Positions 48,057 through 64,000 of a stretch of DNA of 64,000 nt are shown piece after piece. The position numbers and the translations under genes are program-made. The number at the start of each line of letters is the position of its first letter. Position 1 is the stretch's first letter. Source of the DNA: Clostridia bacterium (lineage in GTDB: Bacteria > Bacillota > Clostridia > Oscillospirales > Acutalibacteraceae); assembly GCA_017466365.1 (NCBI GenBank), contig JAFTUG010000011.1, forward strand, positions 177,593-241,592, in the 5' to 3' direction. The notes beneath the pieces were generated by a model. The model worked only from the letters and a program-made list of their open reading frames with translations, was not told the origin of the DNA and ran no database searches.

Positions 48057-48372
48057 TTCGGGCGGATGATATCCGCCCCTACCGCAGGAATAAACTGTAA
48101 CTGTAGGGCGGGGGTTGCTCTCGCAGCTTTTTATATATACCCGAATTTTACATTTGAACTGCAGGGTTTTCGGGCGACCAAACAGGGTCGCCCCTACGAA
48201 TAAAATATTTGTTCACCGATAAGGTAACAACAAAAATCTCACGGTTTATTTGGCGGCTTATAAAACCCCTCTGTCATTTTTTGTTCAAAATCCATCTCCC
48301 TCGTCAGAGGGAGGCGGGCATCTGCGTTTGATTTGGTTTTTCTCTTTATAAAAATTTAAGGGGCTGTTTTTA
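48057..48372. repeat. Composite of family A palindromes and a truncated family B repeat
   Basis: GGGCGGATgatATCCGCCCCTAC (48059) nearly repeats the unit at 7977; GTAGGGCGGGGG...and CGGGCGACC...GGGTCGCCCCTAC (48168-48197) are related. At 48290 CATCTCCCTCGTCAGAGGGAGGC and, farther on, CTTTATAAAAATTTAAGGGG form an inverted copy of 28412-28500. The match stops at GGGGCTGTTTTTA near 48372, where CAGCCCC should follow. No gene is supported between 48018 and 48423. Confidence 0.65.
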
Positions 48373-48423: not shown

Positions 48424-50079
48424 TTATGCCGTTTCTTTTTGTGTGCATCTGCTGTAAAACTTATTTAATAATTCGTTTGGTAATATGCCTGCATAGTTGT
48501 AACTGATTATAACTTTCTGAACTCTTTTACCTGATGATTTATCAGGTTTTTGAACATAAACAGCTTTCACCATATCATTGAGAACAGTAGGTGTCAGTTC
48601 TTCAATGCCGACATATTTTTTTGCTGTGCGGATAAACTTTTCAATGTTATCCGTTTTTTCTTGAATTTCCTGAATTTCTTTGTTTAACAACTCGATTTTT
48701 TCTTTCAGTTCGGTTTGCTCTGTTTCGTAATCGTCAGAAAGCATTTTAAATCTTGTTTCTGAAAGATTACCGTTTACAAGGTCTTCATATACACGCTTGA
48801 ACAATCGGTCAAGTTCGGAACAACGGTTTTCTGCCTTTTGAAGCATTTTTCTTTTGACATCAAGCTCTTTCTTTGTTTCGCTTGATTTCAAAGCCCCAAG
48901 AACTTCTCTGAATTCATCTTCAAAAGCTGAAACACACAAGCAGACAAGTTGAATGTTTTGAAGTGTTCCTTCTTCAAGAACAACTGCACGGATAAAATGA
49001 GTATCACAAGTTTTCGTACTATTCTTTCTCGCTGATGAGCAAACAAAATGGTCTTGCCGTGTTTCATAATTGTTCATTGCACAGTAATACATTTTACTAC
49101 CACAATCTGCGCAACGGGCAATTCCCGAAAACATATTTGTCCTGCCTGTTCTTGTCGGTCTGCGTTTGTTTTTTCGAAGCTCCTGAACACGGTTAAATGT
49201 GTCTTCATCAACAATGGCTTCGTGTGTGTTCTCAAAAATCTGCCACTTTTCAGGCGGGTTAAGAACTTTCTTTTTGGTTTTGTAGGAAGGCTTGTTTGTT
49301 CTGAAATTAACCGTATGACCGATGTATTCACATTTTTCGAGAATTCCCGAAATTGTTTTCGGATCCCAACCGAAAGGGTCTGCGGTTGGTTTCGACGGAT
49401 AATTACGACCAATTCTTTTCCAATAATTTGACGGCGTTTCAACTTTGTCTTCTTTAAGAATTCTTGCAATCTGAGCCGTTCCGTAACCTTCCATACAAAG
49501 ATTAAAAATTCTTTTAACTACTTGAGCCGCTTCTTCGTCAACAATCCATTGCTTCGGATTATCGGGGTTCTTCATAAAACCGTATGGTGGATTTGTTGTA
49601 AGATGTACTCCCGCTTCACCTTGGCTTTTCTTAACGGCACGAATTTTCTTGCTTGTGTCCTTCACATAAAACTCGTTGATTATGTTCAGAAATGGGGTAA
49701 AATCGTTATCTTGCTGATTATCGCTGTCAACACCGTTGTTGATTGCGATGAATCGGATGTTGTTGTTCGGAAATTTGACTTCCGTATACATTCCGACTTC
49801 GAGATAATTTCTGCCGATACGTGACATATCTTTAACGATAATCGTATCAACCTTGCCTTCATCAACAAGAGACATTAACTCCTGCCAAGCGGGTCTGTTG
49901 AAATTTGTTCCGGAATAGCCGTCATCGGTGAAGTGACGAAGATTAGTAAAACCATTTTCTCGTGAGTACCTTTCGAGCATCGCCTTTTGATTTACAACCG
50001 AGTTACTATCACCTTGATTTTCATCATCTCTTGAAAGACGTTCATACAAGGCGGTAATTTTGTCAGACTGTCTTTTCAT
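48424..50079 (-). CDS. Large serine recombinase (integrase) of a mobile element
   Basis: A 551-aa large serine recombinase of the TnpX/Tn4451-like class, which would integrate and excise the element. The resolvase domain has YERLSRDDE (catalytic Ser), GYSGTNFNRPAW and VKDMSRIGRNYLEVG. The Recombinase domain covers about residues 160-270. A zinc-ribbon (CADCGSKMYYC with later Cys) comes around residue 320. A long coiled coil covers about residues 395-470. The start at 50079 is preceded by GGAGGAAAAT; an ATG at 50145 gives 22 more residues. It stands at the left end of the element, beside the presumed attachment site. Confidence 0.93.
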   Translation of the reverse strand: MKRQSDKITALYERLSRDDENQGDSNSVVNQKAMLERYSRENGFTNLRHFTDDGYSGTNFNRPAWQELMSLVDEGKVDTIIVKDMSRIGRNYLEVGMYTEVKFPNNNIRFIAINNGVDSDNQQDNDFTPFLNIINEFYVKDTSKKIRAVKKSQGEAGVHLTTNPPYGFMKNPDNPKQWIVDEEAAQVVKRIFNLCMEGYGTAQIARILKEDKVETPSNYWKRIGRNYPSKPTADPFGWDPKTISGILEKCEYIGHTVNFRTNKPSYKTKKKVLNPPEKWQIFENTHEAIVDEDTFNRVQELRKNKRRPTRTGRTNMFSGIARCADCGSKMYYCAMNNYETRQDHFVCSSARKNSTKTCDTHFIRAVVLEEGTLQNIQLVCLCVSAFEDEFREVLGALKSSETKKELDVKRKMLQKAENRCSELDRLFKRVYEDLVNGNLSETRFKMLSDDYETEQTELKEKIELLNKEIQEIQEKTDNIEKFIRTAKKYVGIEELTPTVLNDMVKAVYVQKPDKSSGKRVQKVIISYNYAGILPNELLNKFYSRCTQKETA

Positions 50080-50148
50080 ATTTTCCTCCTGTTCAGGCGG
50101 ACAGTCTGCCAATACAGGATTGCTTGATTTCAATATATCACACATTTG

Positions 50149-50358: not shown

Positions 50359-51822
50359 TTATTCAATATTTTGATTATGGATTTGGATAGGTTTAATAAT
50401 TTCACGGGACTGTTCTTGTTTCTGATATTTAACATTTGCAAGAACTTTTGAAATGATATATTTTGCACGTTTGAGTTCTTCAAGGCTTCCGTAGTTGCTT
50501 TCTATTAATGCTTCATCGGCATCTTTTTCTTTTTGCAGTTTTTCGAGTTCGGCTTTCAGAGATTTGCTTGTAGCTTTCGGATTTTCATCAACCCACCGTT
50601 TGGCTCGGTAGAATGAATTTAACTCTTTACTGTGTTCGATTTTGAATTTATCTCTGCCGAATTTCTTTCTGCTGTATTCTTCTGCAACTGGTTTAAATTT
50701 TGCATAATCGCCGTGGAATTTAATTCCCTTTTTGAGTTCTTTTATTCTTTCATCGGCAGAAGCAATATGGCTTTGAATTTCAGAAACTTCTTCAATCATT
50801 TTCCATAAAGAATCTGCGGTAGTGATGTTACGTTGCTGAAGAAATGTTACTATCTGTGAAACTTGCTTCAAATCAACTGCCAAATCTTTGTTGTAAAAAT
50901 ATCGGTTCTTACCATTGTGAGCTTCTTGTCGTGAGTTTAGGTAGTCGATAAGAATATCTGCGATTGTCGGTTCTTTTTCTTCTTTGAGTTCAGAGATAAT
51001 TTTCTTGATTTCTTCAATCCATTCTATCAATTCCGCAAGTGCTTTTCTTAAATGTTTTCTCACAGAGTTGAATTTAACGATGTCCCGATTCAGAGTGCCG
51101 AGACTTGTTTCTTCACCTCTGCGTTCCATTTCCGATGCAGCGGGACCGAGATGAACAGTCGGCACTAAATCAATTCCTTGCCGTTCATAAGAACGCATAT
51201 CAATTCTTTCGGGTCGGCTATTCTTTTCGAGATATTCATTAACTTTTTCTTCCCAAGCGTGCCGCCAGATTTCTGCATTTTCTCTTTTGTTCCAATCAAC
51301 AATATCTTCACGGTGTTCGCCGATGCGATTGCCGTGTTCATCAAGTTCGTAAACCTTTCTGCACTTAGGAAGCCACTTTCCGTTTTCGTCAATCGCTCTC
51401 ATCGTCAGCATAATATGTGTGTGCGGATTGCCGTCACCTTTATCGTGAACGGCAAAATCACAACACATTCCTTTTGAAACAAACTGCTCATTGCAATAAC
51501 TTCTGACAAGTTCTGCATATTGGTTGGTCGGAATTTCTATCGGAAGTGCGATAATGATTTTTCGTGCGAGCTGTGAATTCCATTGTGTTTCAGCTTTCTC
51601 TGCAGAGTTCCATAAAGTTTCTCTGTCATAATATTTTTCGGGTGCGTTGGGTGGGAGAAGAATTTCGGAATGGATAACTTCATTTTGTTTTCGTATGTAG
51701 TTTTTTGTTCGGTTATCATATTCCGAAAAAAGTTTGGAGCCGCTTTGGTAAGCAGCTCCTGCAACAGCGGATTTATTTTCACTCCGCTTTTGTATTGATA
51801 TTTGAAAATGGGTACAAGCTAT
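50359..51822 (-). CDS. MobA/MobL-family (MOBQ) relaxase, apparent ATA start
   Basis: A frame of 487 codons. The N-terminal part reads ACTHFQISIQKRSENKSAVA then GAAYQSG (motif I Tyr), then QLARKIIIALPIE, and HDKGDGNPHTHIMLTMR (HxH metal motif). The rest is helical and basic, ending in a coiled coil. The conserved N-terminus lies upstream of the first ATG (51468), so the real protein must begin near 51822. The frame's only plausible initiator there is ATA, behind AAGGAAAGTGAT, with a stop two codons earlier. It nicks oriT for conjugative mobilisation. Either a rare start or a start-codon mutation. Confidence 0.85.
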   Translation of the reverse strand: MACTHFQISIQKRSENKSAVAGAAYQSGSKLFSEYDNRTKNYIRKQNEVIHSEILLPPNAPEKYYDRETLWNSAEKAETQWNSQLARKIIIALPIEIPTNQYAELVRSYCNEQFVSKGMCCDFAVHDKGDGNPHTHIMLTMRAIDENGKWLPKCRKVYELDEHGNRIGEHREDIVDWNKRENAEIWRHAWEEKVNEYLEKNSRPERIDMRSYERQGIDLVPTVHLGPAASEMERRGEETSLGTLNRDIVKFNSVRKHLRKALAELIEWIEEIKKIISELKEEKEPTIADILIDYLNSRQEAHNGKNRYFYNKDLAVDLKQVSQIVTFLQQRNITTADSLWKMIEEVSEIQSHIASADERIKELKKGIKFHGDYAKFKPVAEEYSRKKFGRDKFKIEHSKELNSFYRAKRWVDENPKATSKSLKAELEKLQKEKDADEALIESNYGSLEELKRAKYIISKVLANVKYQKQEQSREIIKPIQIHNQNIE

Positions 51823-52732: not shown

Positions 52733-52766
52733 AACAAAAAACAGCCACGAAATTAATCGTGACTGT
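52733..52766 (-). terminator. Intrinsic terminator of the sigma-region-4-like gene
   Basis: Minus strand: ACAGTCACGA pairs with TCGTGGCTGT (one T-G pair), then TTTTTTG. It overlaps the last codons of the gene. Confidence 0.75.
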
Positions 52767-53754
52767 CTTCGTCTGCTTGTTTGGTTTTCTTAGATTTTTT
52801 CTTTTTTGAGTGGGTGTCGAGAAATTCTCCGTAATGCATAGTAACAAATTGTTCGTAGGCTGTTGCTAATTTTTGAATGCGTTTATAAATTGCACTCGGT
52901 GTTTTGTATCCAAAAAATGCCGCAATCTGTTCAAGCGTGCATCCGTCCATACGCATCTGCAAAATTTGTTTGTCCTTTTCGTCAAGTGCCGATGTGAACG
53001 TATCGACTTTATCTTTTGCAAGGATTTTTGTTTCAAAATCCTCACGTGGTGCAGGTAAATGAATCAGCAATTCTTCGCTGATTTCTTCGTCTGACTTGAT
53101 TGCTTCATCAAGGAAAATGGGCTTTTTGTTATCGTTCCACGAGCAATACCATTTGTTGACGAAATCTCTTTTGTTGGTGCTTTTCCGTTCGCTGTAATCT
53201 TCCATCTGACGATTTTTCCATACCTCATCAATCATCGGTTGCCAGTTCTGTTCTGCAACAATCATATCCGTAAGGTTGCCGATGAGGTTACTGAACTGCT
53301 GATATGTAAGGCACGGAATTTCCATATCCTTTGGCATCGTAAACAGCTTTTGAAAACTCCATTCCATTTCCGTTTCGAATTTATTGCGGAAATGATTCTG
53401 TATTGCATAGCATAATCGCCACAGAGGAAATTCGCCCGAATAGCTTGTCCATTTGCCGGGAATATCTCCGTAACCGTCACGGCGGGGAACCTGAATGAAC
53501 TGCCAAACAGACCACGCATAACAATCCCAGACAAGTTCGAGAAACGCATCGTCATTGATGAGATTATCGTATTTATCCGTGCGAAGAACATCATATGGAC
53601 TTCTCGGAATTTCAAGATAATCCTTGCGTTTGGAAACCAACTCTTTCGGCAACGCATAGAAAAGCGGAAGCCACGCAAGATTGCTGTCCTGCGGAATGGT
53701 TATTATCTGATTCGGTAGCACAACGATAAAACTGTTTTTAGCGGTATCAGCCAT
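52753..53754 (-). CDS. Protein with C-terminal sigma-70 region-4-like HTH
   Basis: A 333-aa protein. The first 220 residues are an unrecognised Trp- and Tyr-rich globular part (ELVWDCYAWSVWQFIQVPRR). Residues about 255-300 form a sigma region 4-like helix-turn-helix: LDEKDKQILQMRMDGCTLEQ followed by IAAFFGYKTPSAIYKRI. A highly basic tail ends it (SKKKKSKKTK). It heads the minus-strand mobilisation genes and may regulate them. It binds DNA by prediction only. Confidence 0.7.
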   Translation of the reverse strand: MADTAKNSFIVVLPNQIITIPQDSNLAWLPLFYALPKELVSKRKDYLEIPRSPYDVLRTDKYDNLINDDAFLELVWDCYAWSVWQFIQVPRRDGYGDIPGKWTSYSGEFPLWRLCYAIQNHFRNKFETEMEWSFQKLFTMPKDMEIPCLTYQQFSNLIGNLTDMIVAEQNWQPMIDEVWKNRQMEDYSERKSTNKRDFVNKWYCSWNDNKKPIFLDEAIKSDEEISEELLIHLPAPREDFETKILAKDKVDTFTSALDEKDKQILQMRMDGCTLEQIAAFFGYKTPSAIYKRIQKLATAYEQFVTMHYGEFLDTHSKKKKSKKTKQADEDSHD

Positions 53755-53783
53755 AATCAATCACCACGTTTCGGAGAATCATT

Positions 53784-54254: not shown

Positions 54255-54281
54255 CGTAACATTTGCCGATTTTCGTCATAT
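54255..54281 (+). promoter_or_regulatory. Class I ECF-type promoter candidate (sigma operon)
   Basis: CGTAACATT, 11 nt, GTCATAT, continuing in a TA-rich stretch. The same boxes with the same spacing recur at 63781. The -35 GTAAC and -10 (C)GTC shape is that of ECF sigma factors, suggesting autoregulation of the sigma gene 150 bp downstream. Confidence 0.5.
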
Positions 54282-54432
54282 GTATATATGGGGATTTTTC
54301 GGCATTTGCGTTTCACAAAAATTTTTTGCTGAATTTTGTACTGAAGAGTCAGTTCTCATGCGTTGTATATATTAGGAGAGTACACTCGAAAATAACATTC
54401 TCTTATATGCTTGAAAAAGGAGTATCATAACA

Positions 54433-54990
54433 TTGGATAAGAACGAAAGAGAAAGGGATATGCAGTTAGCGGACAAGCTGTGGCGAGAATACGAGCCATA
54501 CATTCGCAAACTGTGCAATTACAAACTAAACAGACACAAAGAATACATTGATGATTGTGTTCAAGATGTGTTTGCCGCTTTGGTTGAAGCATTACATAAA
54601 GGAACCCAAATAGAGTATCCGAAAACCTGGTTGACTACGGTTACAAATAATATGATAAAGGATATTTATAGTCTTGCTTCTAAAACTTCCGATAAGGTTA
54701 TATCATTATCCGAAAAGGATTTAATTGACGACAATTATTTTTGGAATGATACAGGATTTGAAAACTCAAATATAAGCGAAGAACAGATATTGAGTGTTAA
54801 GGAAGAAATAATTCAAATGCTTAATGAAGATGAACAGCGTTTATTAAATGAAAGATTTGAACAAAAGTTAAGCATTGTATTGATTGCACTAAGGTATAAC
54901 ACGACGGAGAATAACATTTATCAAAAACTGTTCAGATTGAAAAGTAAATGCAGGAAGCTAATAAGAGATTATTTGGAACAGCAATACTAA
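54433..54990 (+). CDS. ECF-like RNA polymerase sigma factor
   Basis: A 185-aa sigma-70 family protein. Region 2 spans about residues 15-85 (YIDDCVQDVFAALVEALHKG, PKTWLTTVTNNMIKDIY), and region 4 about 125-180 (NEDEQRLLNERFEQKLSIVL, NIYQKLFRLKSKCRKLI). There is no region 1 or 3 of normal size. Translation probably starts at TTG 54433 behind AAAAAGGAG; an ATG at 54460 is possible. It is followed by a membrane anti-sigma candidate, the usual ECF arrangement. Confidence 0.85.
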   Translation: MDKNERERDMQLADKLWREYEPYIRKLCNYKLNRHKEYIDDCVQDVFAALVEALHKGTQIEYPKTWLTTVTNNMIKDIYSLASKTSDKVISLSEKDLIDDNYFWNDTGFENSNISEEQILSVKEEIIQMLNEDEQRLLNERFEQKLSIVLIALRYNTTENNIYQKLFRLKSKCRKLIRDYLEQQY

Positions 54991-55074
54991 CAAAAAATGA
55001 ACCAATAATTTATGCAATATTTTTTTGTAAGATTTTTGATTTTAACAGACTATATAGATGAGGGAGGATAATTA

Positions 55075-55866
55075 ATGATAAGCGATAAGAATTTTTTAGA
55101 GTTTCTTAATGATAAATCACTTGACTTATCAAAAGAGAAACTTGAACAGATTATCGAAGAAGAATTAGAGAAACCCGAAAATGAAATGGATGCAGATTTA
55201 ATTGAGTATTGCCTTGATGCTCTTAACGAACTTGAAAGAAATGACTCAGTTGAAATCAAAGCAGAAAGGACAAGTGATTCAAAAGATAAAATAATATATA
55301 AACCTTTCAAAAAGATTTTTGTTGCAGCTGCCGCTGTAGCAATTGTTGCAATTGGTTCTCTTTCTGTTTTTGCAGCGGTTTCTGATGTAAGCATTCTCGA
55401 TGGATTGGTTGAACTTTATAACAAATATATTGTTGTCAGGTTTGATAAGAGCGATGATAAAGCTGATGATTATGAATTGCTTGGTACAGAACTTGCAGAA
55501 GAATTAAAAGAAAACGGTATTTATCCTGTGCTTTTACCGGAAGCACTATTAAGTGATGAATCGAAAATAACTGAAATTGAATATCAGTTTTGGGATGTTC
55601 TTACTTCTGTGACCATTAGTTTTAGTTATAAAAGCGAAAAAGGCTTTGTTTCAATTGATCATTATGACCCAATTGTTGAGATTGGAAAGTCAGAGTTCCC
55701 CAATGCCAAATATGAAACAACAATTGATATCAACGGAATCCAAGTTCATATTTTTGAACAAAACAGAAAAGGAACAATAACATTCAAGGACGGACAAACA
55801 GAATATACTATTATTTCGTCTATGAATGTTGAACAGGCAATAGAATTTGCAAAAACAATTAAATAG
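55075..55866 (+). CDS. Membrane anti-sigma factor candidate (DUF4367-like)
   Basis: A 263-aa protein. The acidic N-terminal 75 residues (DKNFLEFLNDKSLDLSKEKL) would bind the sigma factor inside the cell. One membrane helix follows at about residues 80-102 (KIFVAAAAVAIVAIGSLSVF). The C-terminal outer domain ends DGQTEYTIISSMNVEQAIEF, as in DUF4367 proteins. The topology fits a transmembrane anti-sigma sensor. No classical zinc anti-sigma motif is seen. The start follows GAGGATAATTA. Confidence 0.75.
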   Translation: MISDKNFLEFLNDKSLDLSKEKLEQIIEEELEKPENEMDADLIEYCLDALNELERNDSVEIKAERTSDSKDKIIYKPFKKIFVAAAAVAIVAIGSLSVFAAVSDVSILDGLVELYNKYIVVRFDKSDDKADDYELLGTELAEELKENGIYPVLLPEALLSDESKITEIEYQFWDVLTSVTISFSYKSEKGFVSIDHYDPIVEIGKSEFPNAKYETTIDINGIQVHIFEQNRKGTITFKDGQTEYTIISSMNVEQAIEFAKTIK

Positions 55867-55878
55867 GAGATGATTAAT

Positions 55879-56388
55879 TTGAAAAAAATTATTTGTATAA
55901 TTTGTTCGTTTGTATTTATATTCTCTTTGTTTAATCTTTCTGTATTTGCTACAGAAAGCAAAGGAGCAGGAACTTCTTCAATTATTTTAACAGGCGAAAC
56001 AATAATTGAAGAAGCAGAAGGTATCTATAACACAAGTGCTAACGCAAGGGCGACGGGATTAATAAGTCAGAAAACACTTACACTTTCAAAAACCGGTACA
56101 CAACTTATTATATCTGCAAAGACGAAAGGCTCTGATGAAGTTGATAAATGCGGCTTCACTTATATAAAATTGCAGCGACTTGTTAATGGCAGTTGGACTG
56201 ATTACTCAACATACTGTTACTCTGATCTGTATTCAGATTCAGCCACATATTCATTTGCTAAAACAATCACACCGCCTTCCGGATATACATATCGCGTAGT
56301 CGCTGAACATTATGCAGCAAAAAAGACACTTCTGATTTTTACATCAGAAGAAACGAGCTATAATGAAACATCGTCAATAACATTTTAA
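55879..56388 (+). CDS. Secreted protein, DUF6147-like
   Basis: A 169-aa exported protein: signal peptide at residues 1-24 ending FATES, then a beta-rich domain with LTLSKTGTQLIISAKT, CGFTYIKLQRLVNGSWTDY and YTYRVVAEHYA, which resembles DUF6147 secreted proteins. The start is TTG at 55879, eight to nine bases after AGGAG; the ATG at 55870 directly touches the site. It is third in the sigma operon, so it may be part of the signal the anti-sigma factor senses. Confidence 0.7.
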   Translation: MKKIICIICSFVFIFSLFNLSVFATESKGAGTSSIILTGETIIEEAEGIYNTSANARATGLISQKTLTLSKTGTQLIISAKTKGSDEVDKCGFTYIKLQRLVNGSWTDYSTYCYSDLYSDSATYSFAKTITPPSGYTYRVVAEHYAAKKTLLIFTSEETSYNETSSITF

Positions 56389-56426
56389 ATATAAGTTCAA
56401 AATAACACTTTCTGATATCAGCAGAT

Positions 56427-56472
56427 AAAACACGCCTTAAACTAATTGATTGGTTTAAGGTGTGTTTTAATT
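56427..56472 (+). terminator. Intrinsic terminator of the sigma operon
   Basis: AAAACACGCCTTAAACTAA pairs with TTGGTTTAAGGTGTGTTTT through a TTGA loop, followed by AATTT. Confidence 0.85.
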
Positions 56473-56531
56473 TATAAAATATTTGTGAAAGTATTACAAA
56501 TTTACTTTAGAAAATTTGTTAATTATTTTTA

Positions 56532-56662
56532 TGTAAGAAACTAGTTTTTTGAAGACTATATTTATGCAAGGCAATTATTGTTTTTAAAACAACTGAGGTG
56601 ATTCCAATGGTTTGCTAAACATTATACAATAAGAAATACGCAACAAAACTCTTGCGCGTATT
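56532..56662 (+). promoter_or_regulatory. Class II promoter plus leader, copy 1
   Basis: TGTAAGAAA (56532), 13 nt, GACTATA (56554), then a leader with GAGGTGATTCCA before ATGGTTTGCTAA (56607), a three-codon ORF. A hairpin AATACGC...GCGTATT (56635-56662) follows. Copies at 58451 and 60420 share the promoter boxes, spacing and leader; copy 3 also shares the hairpin. It precedes the 145-aa secreted protein gene. Nothing else is seen between 56473 and 56722. Confidence 0.65.
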
Positions 56663-56722
56663 ATTAAACAGGAACAAATTTGTAAAAATGTTTTTTTTAA
56701 ATCTTAAAATGGAGATGAGAAA

Positions 56723-57160
56723 ATGAACAAAAATATTAAAATAATCTTTAGCGTTATACTTGTTTTTACACTTATGTTTTCTTCGGTTTTATCTTCTTCT
56801 GCATCTGCTTCTGACGAGAATATCTCGCCGTATACATTAAACAAGCCCAATTTATATTGGGATTTATCAAACGAACAATATAATTTTAGCGGTTCTGCGG
56901 AAATGTCCAACTTGTATTCAAATTATCTGTTTACCGATGTTTCAAAAGTACGAATATATGTAAAAAATAATCATAGCACTGAAACCTTAAAAGTTAAACT
57001 GCTTAAACAAACTGCTTTTGATATTGATTGGTCAGTCTCCACTGAAAATATTGCTGCTAACGGATACAGAACGTGGGATGTTACTTTGGACGAAGATTCT
57101 ACCTATATGTTAAAGTTTTATGCACCATCTGATTTTGAAGGTTACATAATGAAAATATAA
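56723..57160 (+). CDS. Small secreted protein, paralogue 1 (FSG/LYxxYLFT family)
   Basis: A 145-aa protein. Signal peptide at residues 1-30 (FSVILVFTLMFSSVLSSSAS), then a compact beta domain: YWDLSNEQYNFSG, LYSNYLFTDVSKVRIYVKN, TLKVKLLK, and SDFEGYIMKI at the end. The same pattern recurs in the proteins at 57869 and 62329, which are clear paralogues in this window. No Cys, so no disulfides. I do not recognise a named family. It is followed by a VanZ-family gene. Confidence 0.75.
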   Translation: MNKNIKIIFSVILVFTLMFSSVLSSSASASDENISPYTLNKPNLYWDLSNEQYNFSGSAEMSNLYSNYLFTDVSKVRIYVKNNHSTETLKVKLLKQTAFDIDWSVSTENIAANGYRTWDVTLDEDSTYMLKFYAPSDFEGYIMKI

Positions 57161-57210
57161 ATAGTTTTTCGAAAAAATTTAACTCGTAAGCAAACAGAAA
57201 GGGAAAAATA

Positions 57211-57876
57211 ATGAGTTACATATTGAGTTTTGTTGGAAAAATGACTATATATATGCTTATAACTCTTGCAGTATATACGCCAATGAGAATCATCTTTTTA
57301 AAAATCAGAAAAACAAATGTGGTTTTGTGGCGTGAAATTTTATTGGCTGTATTTATTTGCTATATCATTGGCGTTTTTTCGATGACTGTTTTCCCTAATG
57401 TCAGAATTGATTATGATAAAGAATTAATTGTTAATCTGTTTTTCTCTACCGGTAATTCAGTTCATATTTCCAAAAATGGATTATCCTATTTTAAAAATAA
57501 TGAAATATATAATGTTATAAATTTGATACCTTTTAAAACCATTTCTGAATATTTTTTTGCTTCCCAAAACACCAATTATGCAATAAGAGATTGGAATATA
57601 ATAAAAACAACAAATTTGCTGGGTAACTTTTTATTGTTTTTACCTTTGGGTTTTATTCTTCCTCTTTTAAATAACAGATTCAAATCTTTTTTATTAACTT
57701 TGTTAGCATCAAGTGTGTTTATTACAGGAATAGAAGTAATTCAGTATTTTATTGGTAGAGCAGCGGATGTTGACGATTTTATGATTAATTTGACAGGTGT
57801 TTTTACTGGATTCATCTTCTTTGTTTTAAGTTCTAAAATTATTAAATTCATAAAAAGGAGAGTCAATAATGAATAA
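57211..57876 (+). CDS. VanZ-family membrane protein 1
   Basis: A 221-aa protein with about five membrane helices. The VanZ signature is clear: NLLGNFLLFLPLGFILPLL, then EVIQYFIGRAADVDDFMINL and a closing GVFTGFIFF helix. VanZ proteins raise resistance to teicoplanin-like lipoglycopeptides by an unknown mechanism. Chromosomal members are frequent in Clostridia. It overlaps the 150-aa secreted gene by 8 bp, tying the two together. Confidence 0.85.
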   Translation: MSYILSFVGKMTIYMLITLAVYTPMRIIFLKIRKTNVVLWREILLAVFICYIIGVFSMTVFPNVRIDYDKELIVNLFFSTGNSVHISKNGLSYFKNNEIYNVINLIPFKTISEYFFASQNTNYAIRDWNIIKTTNLLGNFLLFLPLGFILPLLNNRFKSFLLTLLASSVFITGIEVIQYFIGRAADVDDFMINLTGVFTGFIFFVLSSKIIKFIKRRVNNE

Positions 57877-58321
57877 AAAAACTTTTTCAAAAAAATTTAT
57901 ATCCATATTGGCATTTGTATTATCTTTTACTTTTGCCTGCTCGCCTTTAGCTAGTGCGGCCGATGTGGATACAGATGATGTGATTTCACCCCAATCCCTT
58001 TATACTCCAACTCAATTGTGGAATTGGAATAATGGTCCATATGAATTCTCTGGAGTAGCAGATTCGTCAGATCTATATACGAATTATTATTTTACCAATG
58101 CATCGCAAGTTGTTATTCATGTTGATAATTTGCATGAAACCGAAAGACTTAAGGTTAGAGTGATTATAAAGAGAGACCAAGGCATACAAATTTCTACAGA
58201 TACAACTTATATTGAACCGGGGCACTCGGAAGAATGGACAGTAAATCTTGATAGTAATAAGAGCTATTTTTTGAGATTTTCTGGACCGTCAGATTTTGAA
58301 GGATGGATCAATAGAAGTTAA
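57869..58321 (+). CDS. Small secreted protein, paralogue 2
   Basis: A 150-aa protein with a signal peptide (ISILAFVLSFTFACSPLASA) and the same domain as the 145-aa protein: NNGPYEFSG, DLYTNYYFTNASQVVIHVDN, RLKVRVIIK, and PSDFEGWI. The signal has a Cys in FACSP that could be read as a weak lipobox, but the position is poor. The AGGAG site lies inside the end of the vanZ-like gene. Confidence 0.75.
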   Translation: MNKKTFSKKFISILAFVLSFTFACSPLASAADVDTDDVISPQSLYTPTQLWNWNNGPYEFSGVADSSDLYTNYYFTNASQVVIHVDNLHETERLKVRVIIKRDQGIQISTDTTYIEPGHSEEWTVNLDSNKSYFLRFSGPSDFEGWINRS

Positions 58322-58343
58322 GATGCGTATAAGTTTATAATTT

Positions 58344-58385
58344 AAGAAGCAGCTTATATACTTTTATATAAGTTGCTTCTTTTTG
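58344..58385 (+). terminator. Intrinsic terminator of unit 1
   Basis: AGAAGCAGCTTATATA pairs with TATATAAGTTGCTTCT, followed by TTTTG. Confidence 0.85.
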
Positions 58386-58450
58386 CATATTCATTTACAT
58401 ATTGTTAAAATTCAACAAAAGCATGCAGAAATAATTGGTTATTATTTTTG

Positions 58451-58566
58451 TGTAAGAAATTAGATTTTTAAAGACTATATTTATGTAAGACAATTATTGA
58501 TTGTTAAATGCTGAAAGGGTGAGTCCAATGTTTTGGTTAGTTTATATCTATAAGAACATTTGTTAA
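58451..58566 (+). promoter_or_regulatory. Class II promoter plus leader mini-ORF, copy 2
   Basis: TGTAAGAAA (58451), 13 nt, GACTATA (58473). After GAAAGGGTGAGTCCA comes a 12-codon ORF, MFWLVYIYKNIC, at 58528-58566. The hairpin of copies 1 and 3 is missing. It lies 20 bp before the 393-aa gene. Confidence 0.65.
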
Positions 58567-58586
58567 TTTTAAAAGGAGTGTAAAAA

Positions 58587-59768
58587 ATGAAATATACTGG
58601 GAAATGTCGTTGTTATAAAACCTTCAAGTCTATTTTTTGCTTTGTTATGATTTTTACAATTATGTTGATGTCCACAATAATTCAGACAAATGCGGTTGCA
58701 AACGAAAATTCCGATAATCTGTTGTTTGTTTATGATAATAACAATTGGGATGAAGCTAAAAACTATATAAACACAGAAGCAAATAAAATTGATGTTGACT
58801 TTATATCTCTTAATGAGTTTTCTGTAAAAAAAGCATCAGATTATACTGCTATTGCATACCCCTTTTCATCAGTTCAAAATGTTCAATTGAAGCATTTATT
58901 TGCAGAACATAAAATTTATTTGTATGGTGAATTAACAATAAACAATTATAAGGATGCGGTTGGATTAAATGATTTTTCCATTTTCATTGACTCAGATATT
59001 GTTGAAAATAATGAGATTCCTAAACAAAAACTTTCAAACGAATATGAAACAAATGAAATTTTTAATTTGATATGTTACGATGCTTCACCGCTGTTGTGTA
59101 AGATTTCTTCAGATAATACTACTCCTTTTTTGAAGGCAATCATAAATGATATTAACGAATCGTCAACTTCTGTAGGAGAACGTTCGCATACAATTGTAAA
59201 GAGTCAATTTAATTTTAGACTATACTTTGAACTCGGCACTTATTTATATGTGTTGAATATGGATTATAGCTTATATCGTAACACAAACGAGTCTGATTCT
59301 ACTTACGATTATTTTGGAATAAAAACAAACACATGGTGTACTGACCCAACTGGCGATAAAACAATAAAGCAGGTAGAAACAAAATACAGTTTCCCAAAAG
59401 CTTCTGATGAACTTATGGAATGTGGTCCGGATACAGATACAAATATTGGTACACTTGAAGTGGCGGTTGGATATGGCGATGGAGCATCGGGTCAGATTGC
59501 TTATCAGATGGATTTATCTGATACAAAACCCAACATTACTAAGACAGCAAATTACACGGCTGATACAGTTCAGTGGATTATGACACCACGCACATTATTC
59601 CCAAAGAGTATTTCTGATACCATTTCAACTTGTAGTGCTACTTGGGCTTCAACTGGAAAGAGTGCACAAATTGATGTTGATTTTCAGGCTGTAGTATCAT
59701 ATGGAACAAACAATCAATATCGATACTATACAGGATACTATAATGTTCCTGTTGTTTATAATTACTGA
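58587..59768 (+). CDS. Unrecognised secreted protein, 393 aa
   Basis: A large exported protein with an N-terminal signal (KSIFCFVMIFTIMLMSTIIQ, ending in NAVAN). A first half (NLLFVYDNNNWDEAKNYINT, ASDYTAIAYPFSSVQNV) has an alpha/beta look. A beta-rich, Tyr/Thr-rich second half (FNFRLYFELGTYLYVLNMDY, WASTGKSAQIDVDFQAVVSY) ends in VVYNY. AAAAGGAGTG precedes the ATG. I do not recognise any domain. Co-transcribed with the small membrane protein that follows. Confidence 0.6.
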   Translation: MKYTGKCRCYKTFKSIFCFVMIFTIMLMSTIIQTNAVANENSDNLLFVYDNNNWDEAKNYINTEANKIDVDFISLNEFSVKKASDYTAIAYPFSSVQNVQLKHLFAEHKIYLYGELTINNYKDAVGLNDFSIFIDSDIVENNEIPKQKLSNEYETNEIFNLICYDASPLLCKISSDNTTPFLKAIINDINESSTSVGERSHTIVKSQFNFRLYFELGTYLYVLNMDYSLYRNTNESDSTYDYFGIKTNTWCTDPTGDKTIKQVETKYSFPKASDELMECGPDTDTNIGTLEVAVGYGDGASGQIAYQMDLSDTKPNITKTANYTADTVQWIMTPRTLFPKSISDTISTCSATWASTGKSAQIDVDFQAVVSYGTNNQYRYYTGYYNVPVVYNY

Positions 59769-59886
59769 ATAAACAACCACACAAATATTATAACAAACTA
59801 CTTGTTTTTCACAAAACATATATAAATATTATTTAAAGATATTATGCTTTAACTTTATAGTAAAAAATAGATTGAAGGTATATCCG

Positions 59887-60129
59887 ATGAAAGAAAAAAT
59901 TATTGAAGTAATGCTCAAAACAACTGGTTTGTTTTTATTTGTTATTGGCTTATTCGTTTCACTCATTGTCGGGTTAGATTACTCTGATTATATGTATTTT
60001 ATTATAGGTACATTAGTGTGTTTTCTGGTTGGACTCTTTTTAGTAGCAACAGGTGAAATAATCAGTTTGTTACGCAAAAATATCGAAAGACAAAACAAGA
60101 TTATAGAGACATTAAATCAAAAAGAATAG
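59887..60129 (+). CDS. Small membrane protein, 80 aa, two helices
   Basis: Two membrane helices (about residues 10-31 and 36-59: GLFLFVIGLFVSLIVGL, YFIIGTLVCFLVGLFLVATG) and an Asn/Lys-rich cytoplasmic tail (RKNIERQNKIIETLNQKE). The ATG follows GAAGGTATATCCG; a TTG at 59872 is the alternative. It may be a holin-like or accessory protein; no family recognised. Confidence 0.6.
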   Translation: MKEKIIEVMLKTTGLFLFVIGLFVSLIVGLDYSDYMYFIIGTLVCFLVGLFLVATGEIISLLRKNIERQNKIIETLNQKE

Positions 60130-60210
60130 TATTGAGCCAAATACAATTTAAATTTTTGATGATATTAATTGTCTGATAAAAGTTTTAAAAATTAAATATG
60201 TAAAGATTTA

Positions 60211-60241
60211 CGGAGCCTGCGTGGTGCAGACTCCGTTTTCT
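60211..60241 (+). terminator. Intrinsic terminator of unit 2
   Basis: ACGGAG.CTGC pairs with GCAG.CTCCGT around GTGGT, followed by TTTTCT. Confidence 0.75.
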
Positions 60242-60419
60242 GTATTATTCTTCGTTATTGATTTGCATTCCGAAGAACTTTTGCTTGAAATACTCATTTA
60301 AATATTTATCAACGATTATTAAGATTCATAACATAAACGAAAACCTTCTTTCCATAACGTGTAGATGTGTTTTGTTTATGTTTGACAAAATTATTATATA
60401 AATTTTGTGAATGTTTTTT

Positions 60420-60554
60420 TGTAAGAAATCTCATATTAAAAGACTATATTTATGCAGGGCAATTATTGTTTTAAAAACAACTGAGGGGTGATACCAATGG
60501 TTTAGCTGAATATTATACAAAAAGAAATACGCAGCAACATTTATTGTGCGTATT
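60420..60554 (+). promoter_or_regulatory. Class II promoter plus leader, copy 3
   Basis: TGTAAGAAA (60420), 13 nt, GACTATA (60442). GAGGGGTGATACCA precedes ATGGTTTAG (60497), a two-codon ORF. The hairpin AATACGCA...TGCGTATT (60526-60554) pairs in a way that keeps the stem of copy 1 despite loop changes. The next 220 bp to the amidase gene are AT-rich with no supported ORF. Confidence 0.65.
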
Positions 60555-60773
60555 ATGAACGGAACCAAACTTGTGGGAGGGATTCAATAGGTATTAAATT
60601 CATTAAACTAAATTATTCATAGCAAGTTTTCTTAAATATTTATATTTAAAATTTCATTTATCTTTAAATCAAGTATTACTGATAATGAAAAAGCAAAAAA
60701 TAAAGCCTTATAAAAAAGATAGGTGTTTGATTTTTAAATTCTATAAATCAGATATAAAAAAGAAGGTAAAAAC

Positions 60774-61910
60774 ATGAATCTTAAAAAGCTATTATCAATC
60801 ATTTTAGTTGTTAGTTTAATATTTACATCTGTAATAACAACTGTTTATGCTTATTCCATGAACACTTTAGAAGAAGTATATATAGACCAAAAAAGCGGAT
60901 TGAAATATTCAAAAATTAAAATACTTGGAAAAAATGAAAATTTATATGTTGAATTCTCTGAACCAGAAAAATCTCTGGACAACATAATATCGAAAAATCA
61001 TTCCTTTATTGAAAATATTTCAGAATATTGCAATATCCCTATGCTTAATGAGACTAACTGGAAAGAGTTTAGAGATGCATTTTATATTTATGTAAATGAG
61101 AATGAAATTCTAGAGTCCTCTGATGAATTTCTTTCAATGGTTGAATTTTTTGATATCTATGAAAATTGTGAAAAAAACACAACTATTAAGTCGTATGTAA
61201 GTCAAAACAAATTGTCTATTGCTTCGGTATCATATCTAAATTCTTTAGATACACATCAAACAGAAACGCTCAACACTTTGTTTAAATTGTTACCGTCTAA
61301 CTCCTCGCTTGTAGAAGATATAAATGAAACAATTATATCTAGTTATGCATCAAATATTAATTCCGAAATAGGAACTTTAGCAATTGTAAAGTCTTTCGAC
61401 ACAACTAAAGGTATTGAATATGCCGAAAAATACGCAACAAGCAAAAATACACCTAAATATCATTATTTTAGAAATGGAGATTGTGCAAACTTTACATCTC
61501 AAATTTTAGAGAACGGAGGCGTTAGTCAAGTTTCTGGCAGCAGTTCGGCAACGGGTTGGTGGCATACAACAAAAACTATCCTTGGAATAACAACACATAA
61601 ACATTCAGAATCTTGGAGCATGGCAGATACATTTGCTCGTTATATGGGTGTTTCAAACAAAACAAAAGTACATAAAACTTTTGCGGCAAACGTAAGAGCG
61701 GGTGATTTTATTACAATCGATTTCACTTCTGATGGAGATTGGGAACACATGGCTTTTGTAACAAAAAAAGACACACAAGTTGGTTCATACGGATATATTG
61801 ATTATAAGGTAGCTCAGCATACGAGTGATTATTATGCGTGGACATCAAGCGATACCAATGGTTGGGAATCATATAACAATACAGGAACATATGCAATAGT
61901 AAGGAGATAA
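60774..61910 (+). CDS. Secreted Amidase_6-domain protein
   Basis: A 378-aa exported protein: signal peptide at residues 1-27 (LLSIILVVSLIFTSVITTVY), a helical middle, and from about residue 215 an Amidase_6-type domain. The latter shows YFRNGDCANFTSQILENGG with the presumed catalytic Cys, GWWHTTK, and DWEHMAFVTKKD with His. Members of this NlpC/P60-related group are thought to cut peptide or amide bonds in the cell wall; the target is unknown. AGAAGGTAAAAAC precedes ATG. Confidence 0.75.
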   Translation: MNLKKLLSIILVVSLIFTSVITTVYAYSMNTLEEVYIDQKSGLKYSKIKILGKNENLYVEFSEPEKSLDNIISKNHSFIENISEYCNIPMLNETNWKEFRDAFYIYVNENEILESSDEFLSMVEFFDIYENCEKNTTIKSYVSQNKLSIASVSYLNSLDTHQTETLNTLFKLLPSNSSLVEDINETIISSYASNINSEIGTLAIVKSFDTTKGIEYAEKYATSKNTPKYHYFRNGDCANFTSQILENGGVSQVSGSSSATGWWHTTKTILGITTHKHSESWSMADTFARYMGVSNKTKVHKTFAANVRAGDFITIDFTSDGDWEHMAFVTKKDTQVGSYGYIDYKVAQHTSDYYAWTSSDTNGWESYNNTGTYAIVRR

Positions 61911-61913
61911 AAA

Positions 61914-62321
61914 TTGAAACCGAAAAATAATCTTTGGTTGCAGATTACCTCCTTTATTATTTGGGTAGGTTATATTATCACTATTTTTAATCCCTGGTTT
62001 GTAGCAGTAGGGATTAGAACAATAAATGGTGAAATCATTTTTACCAGTTTGTTTCCTTTAGCAATATGCTTAATGTTATTGTATTTAATTACATTACTAG
62101 TTTGTTTTTTTAATTCAAGCAGAATAAGCGTTAACTATATAGGCTTAACAATGCTTATATTAGAATTAATCCTCTCAATAAGATTATTTGTAATATGGGG
62201 AGGATTTACATCAATGATAACAAATTATTTTTATATAAATAATTTGTTGTTACTTTTAGCTATTGTCATGGAAATTTTCAAAATAATTAACAAAAAAAGA
62301 TATATTAATAAGGTTAGGTGA
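61914..62321 (+). CDS. Four-helix membrane protein, 135 aa
   Basis: Four hydrophobic segments are visible (for example ITSFIIWVGYIITIF and LLLLAIVMEIFKI). It starts at TTG 61914, three bases after the amidase stop, with AAGGAG before it. No family recognised. Its place between the amidase and secreted protein genes suggests a partner or immunity-like function, which is speculation. Confidence 0.6.
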   Translation: MKPKNNLWLQITSFIIWVGYIITIFNPWFVAVGIRTINGEIIFTSLFPLAICLMLLYLITLLVCFFNSSRISVNYIGLTMLILELILSIRLFVIWGGFTSMITNYFYINNLLLLLAIVMEIFKIINKKRYINKVR

Positions 62322-62328
62322 TTGTTTT

Positions 62329-62787
62329 ATGAAAAAAATGAAAAAGCTGTTTTTATTAGTAGTTGCAGTGTTGCTGCTGTTTGTATCGACAACCAATGCC
62401 TATGCGTTAGAAAACAACGGTTTGTGTGAGCAACCCAATTACTTGTCTGATGAAATTAGTACATATGGTATAGAAAAGCCTGAATCGGAATGGGATTTAT
62501 CAAAAGAAGGAAGATATTCTTTTTCCGGTTGGTGCCATGATCACTATTTGTACACTGATTATTTGTTTACTGGCGCTTCAATAGTTAATATTAAAGTGAA
62601 GAATTATAGTGATGAAAAAATTACAGTTAAATTGTTAGAAAAGAAGACGTTAATTGATACATCTGCGTCTACAAGAACAATTGAAGCGGGAGATACATTA
62701 GAATGGAGTGCATCTTCATTAAATAGCAAAGGATATTATTATCTCCAATTTTCAAAAGGAAGCACTGTTAGTGGATACATAGAATAA
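62329..62787 (+). CDS. Small secreted protein, paralogue 3
   Basis: A 152-aa protein. Signal peptide ending NAYAL (LFLLVVAVLLLFVSTTNAYA), then the shared domain: SEWDLSKEGRYSFSG, YLYTDYLFTGASIVNIKVKN, ITVKLLEKK, and STVSGYIE. It differs from the other two by two Cys (one in WCHD). It starts 8 bp after the four-helix gene and ends 2 bp before the second VanZ gene. Confidence 0.75.
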   Translation: MKKMKKLFLLVVAVLLLFVSTTNAYALENNGLCEQPNYLSDEISTYGIEKPESEWDLSKEGRYSFSGWCHDHYLYTDYLFTGASIVNIKVKNYSDEKITVKLLEKKTLIDTSASTRTIEAGDTLEWSASSLNSKGYYYLQFSKGSTVSGYIE

Positions 62788-62788
62788 T

Positions 62789-63337
62789 ATGTTTGTAGAA
62801 AAATTAATAAATACAATAGTTTTATTTGTGTTTTTTTATATAATATATATTGGTTGGTTGTACATCACTAAAACACCCCAAAAAAAAATAACAAAATGTA
62901 TACAAATAACTAGTGTTTTGTATTTATCCATATTAGTTTCTGTTTTAATCATACCATCTTGGAATTTTTCTCCATTTTATTTTGTTCTTTCTTCCAACAG
63001 CCACTTTGAAGACTTTAATTATATTCCGTTCAAAACCATTTTTACACAATTGTCCAATATAGTAAATGATATTGACAGATTATATTGTTTAAAGAATTTG
63101 ATAGGGAATCTTTTTGCGTTTCTTCCGTTTCCTATTCTGATTAAACTATCAATTCCACAGGCTAAGACATATTTATGTTTTTTTGTTCCTATAGTTTTAA
63201 TTGTTTTAATAGAATGTATCCAAACAAAAGTAGGAAGGGTTTTTGATGTTGATGATATAATATTAAATTCCTTAGGAGCTATAGTAGGTGGAATTTTTGT
63301 GAAGTGCAATTTAATAATTCCCAAAACAGAAACCTGA
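62789..63337 (+). CDS. VanZ-family membrane protein 2
   Basis: A 182-aa VanZ protein: NLIGNLFAFLPFPILIKL, ECIQTKVGRVFDVDDIILNSLGA and about four to five helices. Shorter than VanZ protein 1 and lacking its long N-terminal loop. It follows a small secreted paralogue, repeating the secreted-VanZ pairing seen at 56723-58321. Confidence 0.85.
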   Translation: MFVEKLINTIVLFVFFYIIYIGWLYITKTPQKKITKCIQITSVLYLSILVSVLIIPSWNFSPFYFVLSSNSHFEDFNYIPFKTIFTQLSNIVNDIDRLYCLKNLIGNLFAFLPFPILIKLSIPQAKTYLCFFVPIVLIVLIECIQTKVGRVFDVDDIILNSLGAIVGGIFVKCNLIIPKTET

Positions 63338-63366
63338 ATTAGTGGATTCAAAAAACTTTTATCAAA

Positions 63367-63412
63367 AACAACTACCGTTATAATTTTTGCAAGTTAGAAC
63401 GGTGGTTGTTTC
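63367..63412 (+). terminator. Intrinsic terminator of unit 3
   Basis: AACAACTACCGTT pairs with AACGGTGGTTGTT (one G-T pair), followed by TCTATATAAAATT. Confidence 0.75.
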
Positions 63413-63650
63413 TATATAAAATTATTAATCAATTCGATTTGTTGAATTATAATCCCCAAATTTATTTATATATTTAATAATATCATTCACAATAATAAAT
63501 AAATATAATTTTAGAGAAATTTCCGTTGTCTCAAGAAGTTATCAGCTCTGAAGTAAGTTTGTAGTGGATAATTCTTTACTACATTAGGAAAATATTTTCT
63601 GTTACAAACACGGCGATTAATTCGTTATTATAACCAATCCATAAATGTCA

Positions 63651-63682
63651 AAAGGCGTATCCAGTTCCGATACGCTTTATTC
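63651..63682. terminator. Second hairpin in the 63.3-63.9 kb gap
   Basis: AAAGGCGTATC-cagttcc-GATACGCTTT followed by ATTCTT. The surrounding 63413-63780 stretch is AT-rich and without a supported gene. Confidence 0.5.
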
Positions 63683-63780
63683 TTACGTCCAAACTATTGT
63701 GATGTTGCACAAATACCAATGTCGAGTTTTGTTGAAAAAGTAGAAACTTTAAAAATTCTCTAATTTTCTTAATTTTTTTA

Positions 63781-63807
63781 CGTAACATTTCGCGAATTTT
63801 GTCATAT
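63781..63807 (+). promoter_or_regulatory. Class I ECF-type promoter candidate, second copy
   Basis: CGTAACATT, 11 nt, GTCATAT, same boxes and spacing as at 54255, continuing as ATATAATGG. It lies 107 bp before the gene at 63914. Confidence 0.5.
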
Positions 63808-63913
63808 ATATAATGGAATGTTATTAAGGACTTATATTAATCAAAAGATTATGTCTAAATAAATGATAACTAAAAATTATGCTTTATTTGGATGATTTAT
63901 ATGAGGTGACATA

Positions 63914-64000
63914 ATGAACTATTTAAATGATAATTTAAGCAGCAGAACGGATTTAATAAAAAGAGTAATTGACAAATGTATGCTTTTTCAAGCGTACTCC
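63914..64000 (+). CDS. Partial gene running off the right edge
   Basis: Twenty-nine codons are seen, starting MNYLNDNLSSRTDLIKRVID, behind GAGGTGACATA. Too short to classify. Its promoter repeats that of the sigma operon, so it is probably in the same regulon. Confidence 0.55.
   Translation, partial: MNYLNDNLSSRTDLIKRVIDKCMLFQAYS

Follow-up and report, generated by a model that had tools for sequence, protein, structure and literature searches.

Group 5 sigma factors such as UviA and TcdR are dedicated alternative sigmas for bacteriocin or toxin genes of clostridia. In the microbisporicin cluster, a pathway-specific extracytoplasmic function (ECF) sigma factor, MibX, and its anti-sigma factor, MibW, are described as providing feed-forward control of antibacterial production and immunity (PMC4973701). 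The anti-sigma RsiV is cut by signal peptidase after its membrane segment (PMC6066255), and SigV of C. difficile has been linked to lysozyme resistance (PMC9044953). The mediterrocin cluster of Mediterraneibacter gnavus is located among mobile elements (PMC12345188), while work on synthetic ECF chimeras reports that the domains binding the -35 and -10 elements can be recombined, yielding new promoters without crosstalk (PMC3817407). Here we describe an AT-rich island at the right end of a 64,000-nucleotide stretch (hereafter the window) from a member of the Acutalibacteraceae (contig JAFTUG010000011.1, assembly GCA_017466365.1, positions 177,593 to 241,592). On balance, we favor the interpretation that it is an ECF-gated, exchangeable antagonism arsenal of exported proteins lying beside mobilization genes.

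The island begins with a three-gene module closed by a hairpin:

54433..54990, forward strand: ECF sigma factor, allele A, with region 4 helix ENNIYQKLFRLK (profile matches)
55075..55866, forward strand: membrane anti-sigma candidate (topology by eye, sub-cut-off profiles)
55870..56388, forward strand: conserved 172-amino-acid (aa) exported protein, a predicted beta sandwich without a family (profiles, structure model)
56426..56469, forward strand: terminator-like hairpin after the 172-aa gene (folding)

The sigma factor matches the TIGR02937 sigma70-ECF model with 65.6 bits (cut-off 42.9) and Sigma70_r2 with 33.7 bits (cut-off 24); the region 4 models match only below their cut-offs and region 3 is not matched, giving the composition of an ECF sigma with regions 2 and 4 only. 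The anti-sigma candidate, as judged by eye, has about 75 inner residues, a single hydrophobic segment and about 160 outer residues. Its match to DUF4179, the RsiV-type domain, falls below the cut-off (16.9 versus 30.1 bits), as does that to DUF4367; DUF4179 is recovered at E-values up to 0.05 in nine of 12 relatives (best 0.0015), and a PDB search for relatives returned none that was convincing. Past the hydrophobic segment lies A100, an alanine invariant in all 12 relatives and set in what we read as a signal-peptidase-acceptable context; hence, cleavage at this position is likely. The sequence-only reading of this DNA, made before any database search, had proposed an ECF-like sigma and an anti-sigma candidate, and the profile matches and membrane topology uphold both assignments.

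The 172-aa protein yields a model with a mean predicted local distance difference test score of 85, for which neither structure comparison (E-values up to 0.001) nor sequence search found a PDB match. It has matches in 26 of 300 genomes of the family, three of them weak (G190, G211 and G244), two of which fall within far longer reading frames. Named assemblies, when scanned, yielded 75 loci with this gene; their record titles all name metagenome-assembled genomes, most of them clostridial, while those of L073 and L075 are non-clostridial, perhaps through binning errors. With the two loci of the genome under study the total is 77, of which 67 include 1.7 kb or more of upstream sequence. Sigma and anti-sigma genes both precede the 172-aa gene in 61 of these 67 (sigma only in three, anti-sigma only in two, neither in one), and in 56 of 62 clusters after merging at 95% DNA identity, using profiles built partly from the counted loci themselves. 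Scattered homologues never found with the sigma factor had been named beforehand as telling against a common regulon; the 61 of 67 loci mostly speak in its favor.

The repeat TGTAAGA-N15-GACTATA, recovered by a repeat search and by scans, is found ahead of the anti-sigma gene and of each of three downstream cargo units:

55026..55054, forward strand: putative promoter of the anti-sigma gene, TGTAAGA-N15-GACTATA (pattern search)
56532..56560, forward strand: putative promoter of cargo unit 1 (pattern search)
58451..58479, forward strand: putative promoter of cargo unit 2 (pattern search)
60420..60448, forward strand: putative promoter of cargo unit 3 (pattern search)

Across the 300 family genomes the exact pattern occurs at 18 sites in eight genomes, all eight belonging to the 26 in which the 172-aa protein has a match. 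Reversed, the pattern served as a control and gave eight matches in eight genomes, one of which carries the 172-aa gene. Seventeen of the 18 exact sites lie inside islands. The eighteenth (G018:C15), 278 bases from a contig end, retains the leader motif described below and surroundings that match window positions 60207-60479 at 87%, and is followed by a TrkH-family gene with no cargo open reading frame (ORF); it is apparently an island end or an empty slot. Eight further genomes reached via their loci, among which G332 repeats G056 and G331 resembles G230, add 16 sites in six genomes, all at island positions, against three matches of the reversed pattern. The two genomes without sites are accounted for by sigmas of other -35 alleles (L073, L078).

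If the repeats were ordinary housekeeping promoters, the sigma would control something else and the island would be a chance pile of secreted-protein genes. Judged by eye, TTGTAA and ACTATA could pass for a sigma-A promoter of poor quality; however, the sites occur in islands only, their -35 elements are matched to the allele of the sigma, and the same site stands before the anti-sigma gene, so that we regard this explanation as highly improbable. A general sigma-70 scan of the island gave no excess (55 sites versus 63.9 expected) and weighs neither way.

The same genome carries a second module (L009) on contig C8, again with a relaxase and a recombinase nearby. The two sigmas agree at 67 of 72 residues in the region 2 part and at 30 of 104 beyond it; for this second part, L073 has the C8 type (84 of 96) and L072 the window type (100 of 104). 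The exchanged DNA is sharply delimited:

54669..55025, forward strand: specificity block running from the sigma linker through region 4 and the stop codon into intergenic DNA as far as the -35 element (blastn against C8)

Window and C8 DNA are 91% identical before this block and 85% identical after it, with no blastn match between; in 60-base bins, identity stays at 65-73% up to about position 55150, a span that includes the promoter and the first anti-sigma codons. Thus, the two modules differ jointly in region 4 and in the DNA that leads to and surrounds the -35 element. Both the anti-sigma and the cargo promoters of C8 read TGTAATTTTT..GACTATA. Within the assembly, which is 79.6% complete, all four TGTAAGA-type sites fall in the window island (contig C5) and both TGTAATTTTT-type sites in the C8 island, with neither type found elsewhere and no control match for the latter.

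For covariation we used 28 loci scoring at least 12.9, with 27 distinct sigmas and a best promoter above all shuffles. Among the distinct sigmas, -35 difference tracks region 4 with region 2 allowed for (partial r 0.32, reached in 3 of 5000 permutations), and less closely region 2 with region 4 allowed for (partial r 0.18, 88 of 5000); in a 25-locus subset leaving out L070, L075 and L077, the partial r is 0.29 (5 of 5000). Apparent region-4/-35 pairs are ENNIYQ with TGTAAGA, ENLVQQ with TGTAATT and ENNIRQ with TGTAACA. We tentatively propose, at rather less than even odds, that cassettes, each carrying a copy of the private promoter and in many cases a start-stop leader, can be inserted into islands governed by the sigma, the anti-sigma and the 172-aa protein as an exported signal, and that region 4 and the adjoining -35 block are traded as an allele, such that two arsenals could share sensing parts yet fire separately.

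The three window units are composed of the following:

56723..57160, forward strand: 145-aa exported protein with a jelly-roll-like model, unit 1 (paralogy, structure model)
57211..57876, forward strand: VanZ-family membrane protein, unit 1 (PF04892, E-value 2.6e-21)
57869..58321, forward strand: 150-aa exported paralogue, unit 1 (paralogy)
58344..58381, forward strand: terminator-like hairpin after unit 1 (folding)
58587..59768, forward strand: 393-aa exported protein, unit 2 (in two of 300 family genomes)
59872..60129, forward strand: 85-aa small protein, hydrophobic by eye, unit 2 (ORF list)
60210..60236, forward strand: terminator-like hairpin after unit 2 (terminator scan, folding)
60774..61910, forward strand: 378-aa exported protein with a C-terminal Amidase_6 domain, unit 3 (Pfam, E-value 2.6e-22)
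61914..62321, forward strand: 135-aa protein, hydrophobic by eye, unit 3 (ORF list)
62329..62787, forward strand: 152-aa exported paralogue, unit 3 (paralogy)
62789..63337, forward strand: VanZ-family membrane protein, unit 3 (PF04892, E-value 1.2e-17)
63366..63411, forward strand: terminator-like hairpin after unit 3 (folding)

This inventory agrees with the sequence-only reading, which had listed three paralogous small secreted proteins, an Amidase_6 protein, a 393-aa orphan, two VanZ proteins, two small membrane proteins and a terminator for each unit. The 150-aa and 152-aa paralogues are 44% and 40% identical to the 145-aa protein, their export being read by eye from the N-termini. Profile searches recovered the Amidase_6 and VanZ domains and gave no family for the 393-aa protein; the 85-aa and 135-aa products are the candidate membrane proteins. 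Hairpins follow all three units, and the four chosen stretches, including that after the 172-aa gene, are all more stable than their shuffled versions (z -9.5, -7.0, -4.1 and -6.5). Of these, a simple terminator scan recovered the third alone (60217-60229); over both strands it reported seven sites versus 3.3 expected. The 145-aa family has matches in 12 of 300 genomes, three strong (E-value below 1e-40) and nine weak (22-26 bits); two of the strong homologues (G000, G291) lie inside islands.

The cargo turns over among close relatives. In L042, from the same genus, unit 2 comes first and a 145-aa/VanZ pair stands behind the promoter corresponding to that of window unit 3, while L072 retains unit 1 followed by a different unit. 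The cargo scanned from other islands is a chosen part, with resistance genes as such not a search target, and many of the scanned proteins have no family match. L073 encodes a mediterrocin-family bacteriocin (57.3 versus 40 bits) with an ATP-binding cassette (ABC) ATPase and a DUF1430-like protein just below the cut-off (27.4 versus 28.2 bits). L088 has an HNH protein (24 versus 21.4 bits) beside SUKH-1 (26.4 versus 25.4 bits), families with toxin and immunity roles, respectively. Further contents are radical SAM, PqqD and a small peptide in L043, which has a ricin-lectin protein in a separate unit; ricin lectin with matrixin in L045, the only island with matrixin above its cut-off; C39-like protease matches above the cut-off in L044 and below it in L088; an LCAT (lipase-like) protein in L090; and a weak, sub-cut-off phospholipase-C-like match in L072. 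An antagonism role for the window cargo is likely, though unproven, by association with this cargo of its relatives.

The VanZ and Amidase_6 proteins bear on a different view, put forward by the sequence-only reading, in which the sigma senses envelope damage and these proteins shield the cell wall. An ECF sigma with a membrane anti-sigma, two VanZ proteins and one Amidase_6 protein would suit such a regulon, and RsiV, a DUF4179 anti-sigma, is reported to sense lysozyme (PMC6066255). The window VanZ proteins, however, match the general PF04892 domain only and score far under the resistance models: the first reaches 31.8 bits against vanZ-F (cut-off 375) and 30.3 against vanZ-Pt (cut-off 260), and the second 24.5 against vanZ-Pt. 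Moreover, an envelope-defense regulon should keep its effectors, yet the cargo of the scanned islands largely differs (bacteriocin, HNH nuclease, lipase, protease-like, radical SAM), although VanZ does recur in one island, L074, beside a 161-aa exported protein. We consider envelope defense an improbable explanation, and a role in lipoglycopeptide resistance is likewise not supported. What stands of that earlier proposal is a single ECF-linked, multi-unit regulon beside mobile-element genes, with antagonism as its likely role.

Slightly more plausible, but still unlikely in our estimate, is a colonisation regulon of secreted adhesins and hydrolases acting on fibre, mucin or host surfaces. The jelly-roll-like model of the 145-aa protein, with carbohydrate- and collagen-binding modules among its generic matches, the ricin-lectin proteins of L043 and L045, and the goat, sheep, deer or horse gut named in many locus record titles are all in keeping with it. 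Against this, a bacteriocin with an ABC gene and HNH with SUKH-1 are not colonisation genes, and fast cargo turnover with adjacent membrane proteins better fits weapon/immunity pairs.

Under the antagonism reading, the membrane anti-sigma would hold the dedicated ECF sigma until an outside signal triggers release, with the co-encoded 172-aa exported protein as a possible ligand or co-sensor. Signal peptidase, which cuts RsiV, would then probably cut the anti-sigma just past its membrane segment, freeing the sigma to direct polymerase to the private promoter only. The copy before the anti-sigma gene would provide feedback and those before each unit cargo activation. The units would thereby deliver exported effectors, putatively killing competitors, and membrane proteins, here VanZ, which possibly serve as immunity or helper proteins. 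Units are gained, lost and re-paired with promoters; as recombinase and relaxase genes adjoin the island, the arsenal could change hands, and co-resident islands would be insulated by their distinct region 4 and -35 alleles.

Each cargo promoter of the window is followed by a short leader motif:

56598..56609, forward strand: leader motif GTGATTCCAATG, then a 3-codon ORF, unit 1 (motif search)
58519..58530, forward strand: leader motif GTGAGTCCAATG, then a 12-codon ORF, unit 2 (motif search)
60488..60499, forward strand: leader motif GTGATACCAATG, then a 2-codon ORF, unit 3 (motif search)

The form GTGAKWCCRATG is found downstream of all three (0.04 expected). Among 17 distinct cargo promoters it lies within 330 bases of nine (three of these in the window, the others singly in L009, L073, L045, L074, L088 and L090), with a near match by eye at two (L043, L088) and none at six. 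The conserved GTGAxxCCRATG, found together with a strong ribosome site, opens ORFs of two to 12 codons and is also present at L009 6759-6770 and on the minus strand of L182 (reverse-complement position 1689). This genome has eight copies (control: none), four being island leaders; of the others, one on C17 precedes another exported protein, one on C8 is an ordinary start codon, and the remaining two lie on C6 and C12. Possibly, the start-stop leader acts as an mRNA-stabilising or regulatory element. A structured leader RNA was considered: the two leaders that were folded, out of three, were no more stable than their shuffled versions (z 0.30 and 1.73), and the sole Rfam match at E-values up to 1 between 48 and 64 kb, sub-threshold, lies on the first terminator-like hairpin. 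We therefore prefer a short translated leader. The motif also occurs within the anti-sigma coding DNA of L043, L045 and L088, about 240 bases past their promoters, where the out-of-frame mini-ORF that it opens may be due to chance.

The GC content in 2-kb steps is 0.405-0.488 from 1 to 48 kb, 0.380-0.395 from 48 to 54 kb and 0.272-0.313 from 54 to 64 kb; the drops at 48 kb and 54 kb agree with the compositional break from bases 1-48,000 seen in the sequence-only reading. The contig ends at window base 64000 and hence the right end of the island lies beyond the visible sequence. Between the two drops lie the following:

48424..50145, reverse strand: large serine recombinase (Resolvase, Recombinase, Zn ribbon, DUF4368; Pfam), close to the left boundary of the AT-richer block
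50359..51468, reverse strand: MobA/MobL relaxase with its N-terminal part missing (Pfam; profile positions 102-224 only)
52753..53760, reverse strand: 335-aa protein with a weak, below-cut-off sigma region-4-like helix-turn-helix, divergent from the island

Of the parts of an integrative mobilizable element, the window has the recombinase; no intact relaxase was found in it, while the MobA/MobL domain of L009 is complete. The left end of the element is estimated near 48.3 kb from remnants in relatives. Such remnants, left by decayed elements, are the lone C-terminal ends of this recombinase that two relatives from the genus carry (L172 3947-4353 and L173 1987-2344). The left neighbor is an argS-like gene matched in 30 of 31 genus genomes, with a DALR anticodon-binding domain in its L169 homologue. 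The DNA beyond this gene in L169-L171 differs, by eye, from the window and mutually; therefore, these flanks offer no clean empty site. A phage or plasmid origin was likewise sought: no 172-aa relative was confirmed in IMG/VR and none was found in plasmid/phage collections at an E-value of 1e-5, nor did IMG/VR yield a relative of the 145-aa protein. Upstream of the relaxase and second module, L009 has an actin-like (ALP_N) gene (455-1384), as in plasmid segregation systems, and L042 has a similar one by eye. A short intergenic repeat at 48059-48082, with many copies across the genus, is unrelated to the island.

A different promoter-like pattern precedes the sigma gene itself:

54256..54286, forward strand: putative promoter-like element upstream of the sigma gene, reading GTAACATTT..GTCATAT (pattern search)
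63782..63812, forward strand: GTAACATTT..GTCATAT again, upstream of an ORF truncated at the contig end (pattern search)

The ORF downstream of the second site (63915-64000) is broken off at the contig end. With at most one mismatch this genome has seven such sites (control: none), two of them at contig ends and thus perhaps one place; two of 30 other genus genomes have the pattern. It precedes both island sigma genes (window; L009 4377-4407) and occurs in L175, L176, L177 and L182; further copies are found upstream of an exported protein, for which Pfam gave no family, and of a protein that looks LytTR-like by eye. This is only a suggestion that another ECF sigma acts above those of the islands.

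Several observations weigh against the antagonism reading or narrow its reach. No GACTATA-type site is found near 16 of 28 scanned loci; in L078 and L095 such a site stands before the anti-sigma gene only, and L044 and L048 are also without a matching cargo promoter. The cargo-promoter layout is accordingly established for closer relatives only. In wider, noisier sets, in which the promoter score favors TGTnA by design, -35 also tracks region 2 (1, 2 and 0 of 2000 permutations); as both partial values are significant there, the clear allele pairs carry most of the code argument. No toxin or bacteriocin family was recovered in the window cargo by profile searches, nor any PADLOC family; a known bacteriocin family is seen instead in L073 (NF052268), and the HNH/SUKH-1 neighbors in L088. 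Structural neighbors of the 145-aa model are generic jelly rolls and binding modules (template modeling score up to 0.46), which adhesion would fit too. Its third strong homologue, G002, lies outside any module, in a genome with no 172-aa match and with no promoter match on the homologue's strand within 19 kb. The expected joint occurrence holds for the 393-aa gene (both of two in islands) and for two of three strong 145-aa homologues. Finally, the truncated relaxase makes present mobility doubtful.

The island is coherent and more tightly organized than first seen: the 172-aa gene (55870), the promoter repeat, the leader motif and the mobile-element genes at 48.4-53.8 kb were absent from the sequence-only reading. 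We regard the locus as a new form of ECF-controlled effector island. A literature search covering titles and abstract openings found no such module described, which leaves its absence from print unproven. The three-gene module with its promoter allele offers a sequence tag for unannotated antibacterial or surface-effector genes in uncultured clostridia, and the region-4/-35 pairs, apparently a natural series, may help in reading the ECF recognition code.

Among the systems compared, UviA and TcdR belong to a different sigma group with different promoters, and we know of no such anti-sigma or exchangeable cargo in their case. Like MibX/MibW, the island has a dedicated ECF sigma and anti-sigma pair; that system, however, is an actinomycete lantibiotic pathway with one fixed product, as opposed to a clostridial one with interchangeable cargo, a 172-aa partner and swapped -35 alleles, the sigmas being likened by description (PMC4973701). 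With SigV/RsiV it shares a single membrane segment, a weak DUF4179 match and a conserved alanine past the segment, but the island anti-sigma matches DUF4179 below the cut-off and has a different sensor part (PMC6066255). The mediterrocin cluster and the L073 cargo have the bacteriocin family in common, accompanied in L073 by an ABC ATPase and a DUF1430-like protein, and the published cluster, too, is located among mobile elements; the main text of that report does not use the word sigma (PMC12345188), whereas here the family sits in a putatively sigma-gated island. Lastly, the trade of domains engineered in synthetic ECF chimeras (PMC3817407) appears here to have occurred in nature, with the promoter change directly adjoining the traded domain.

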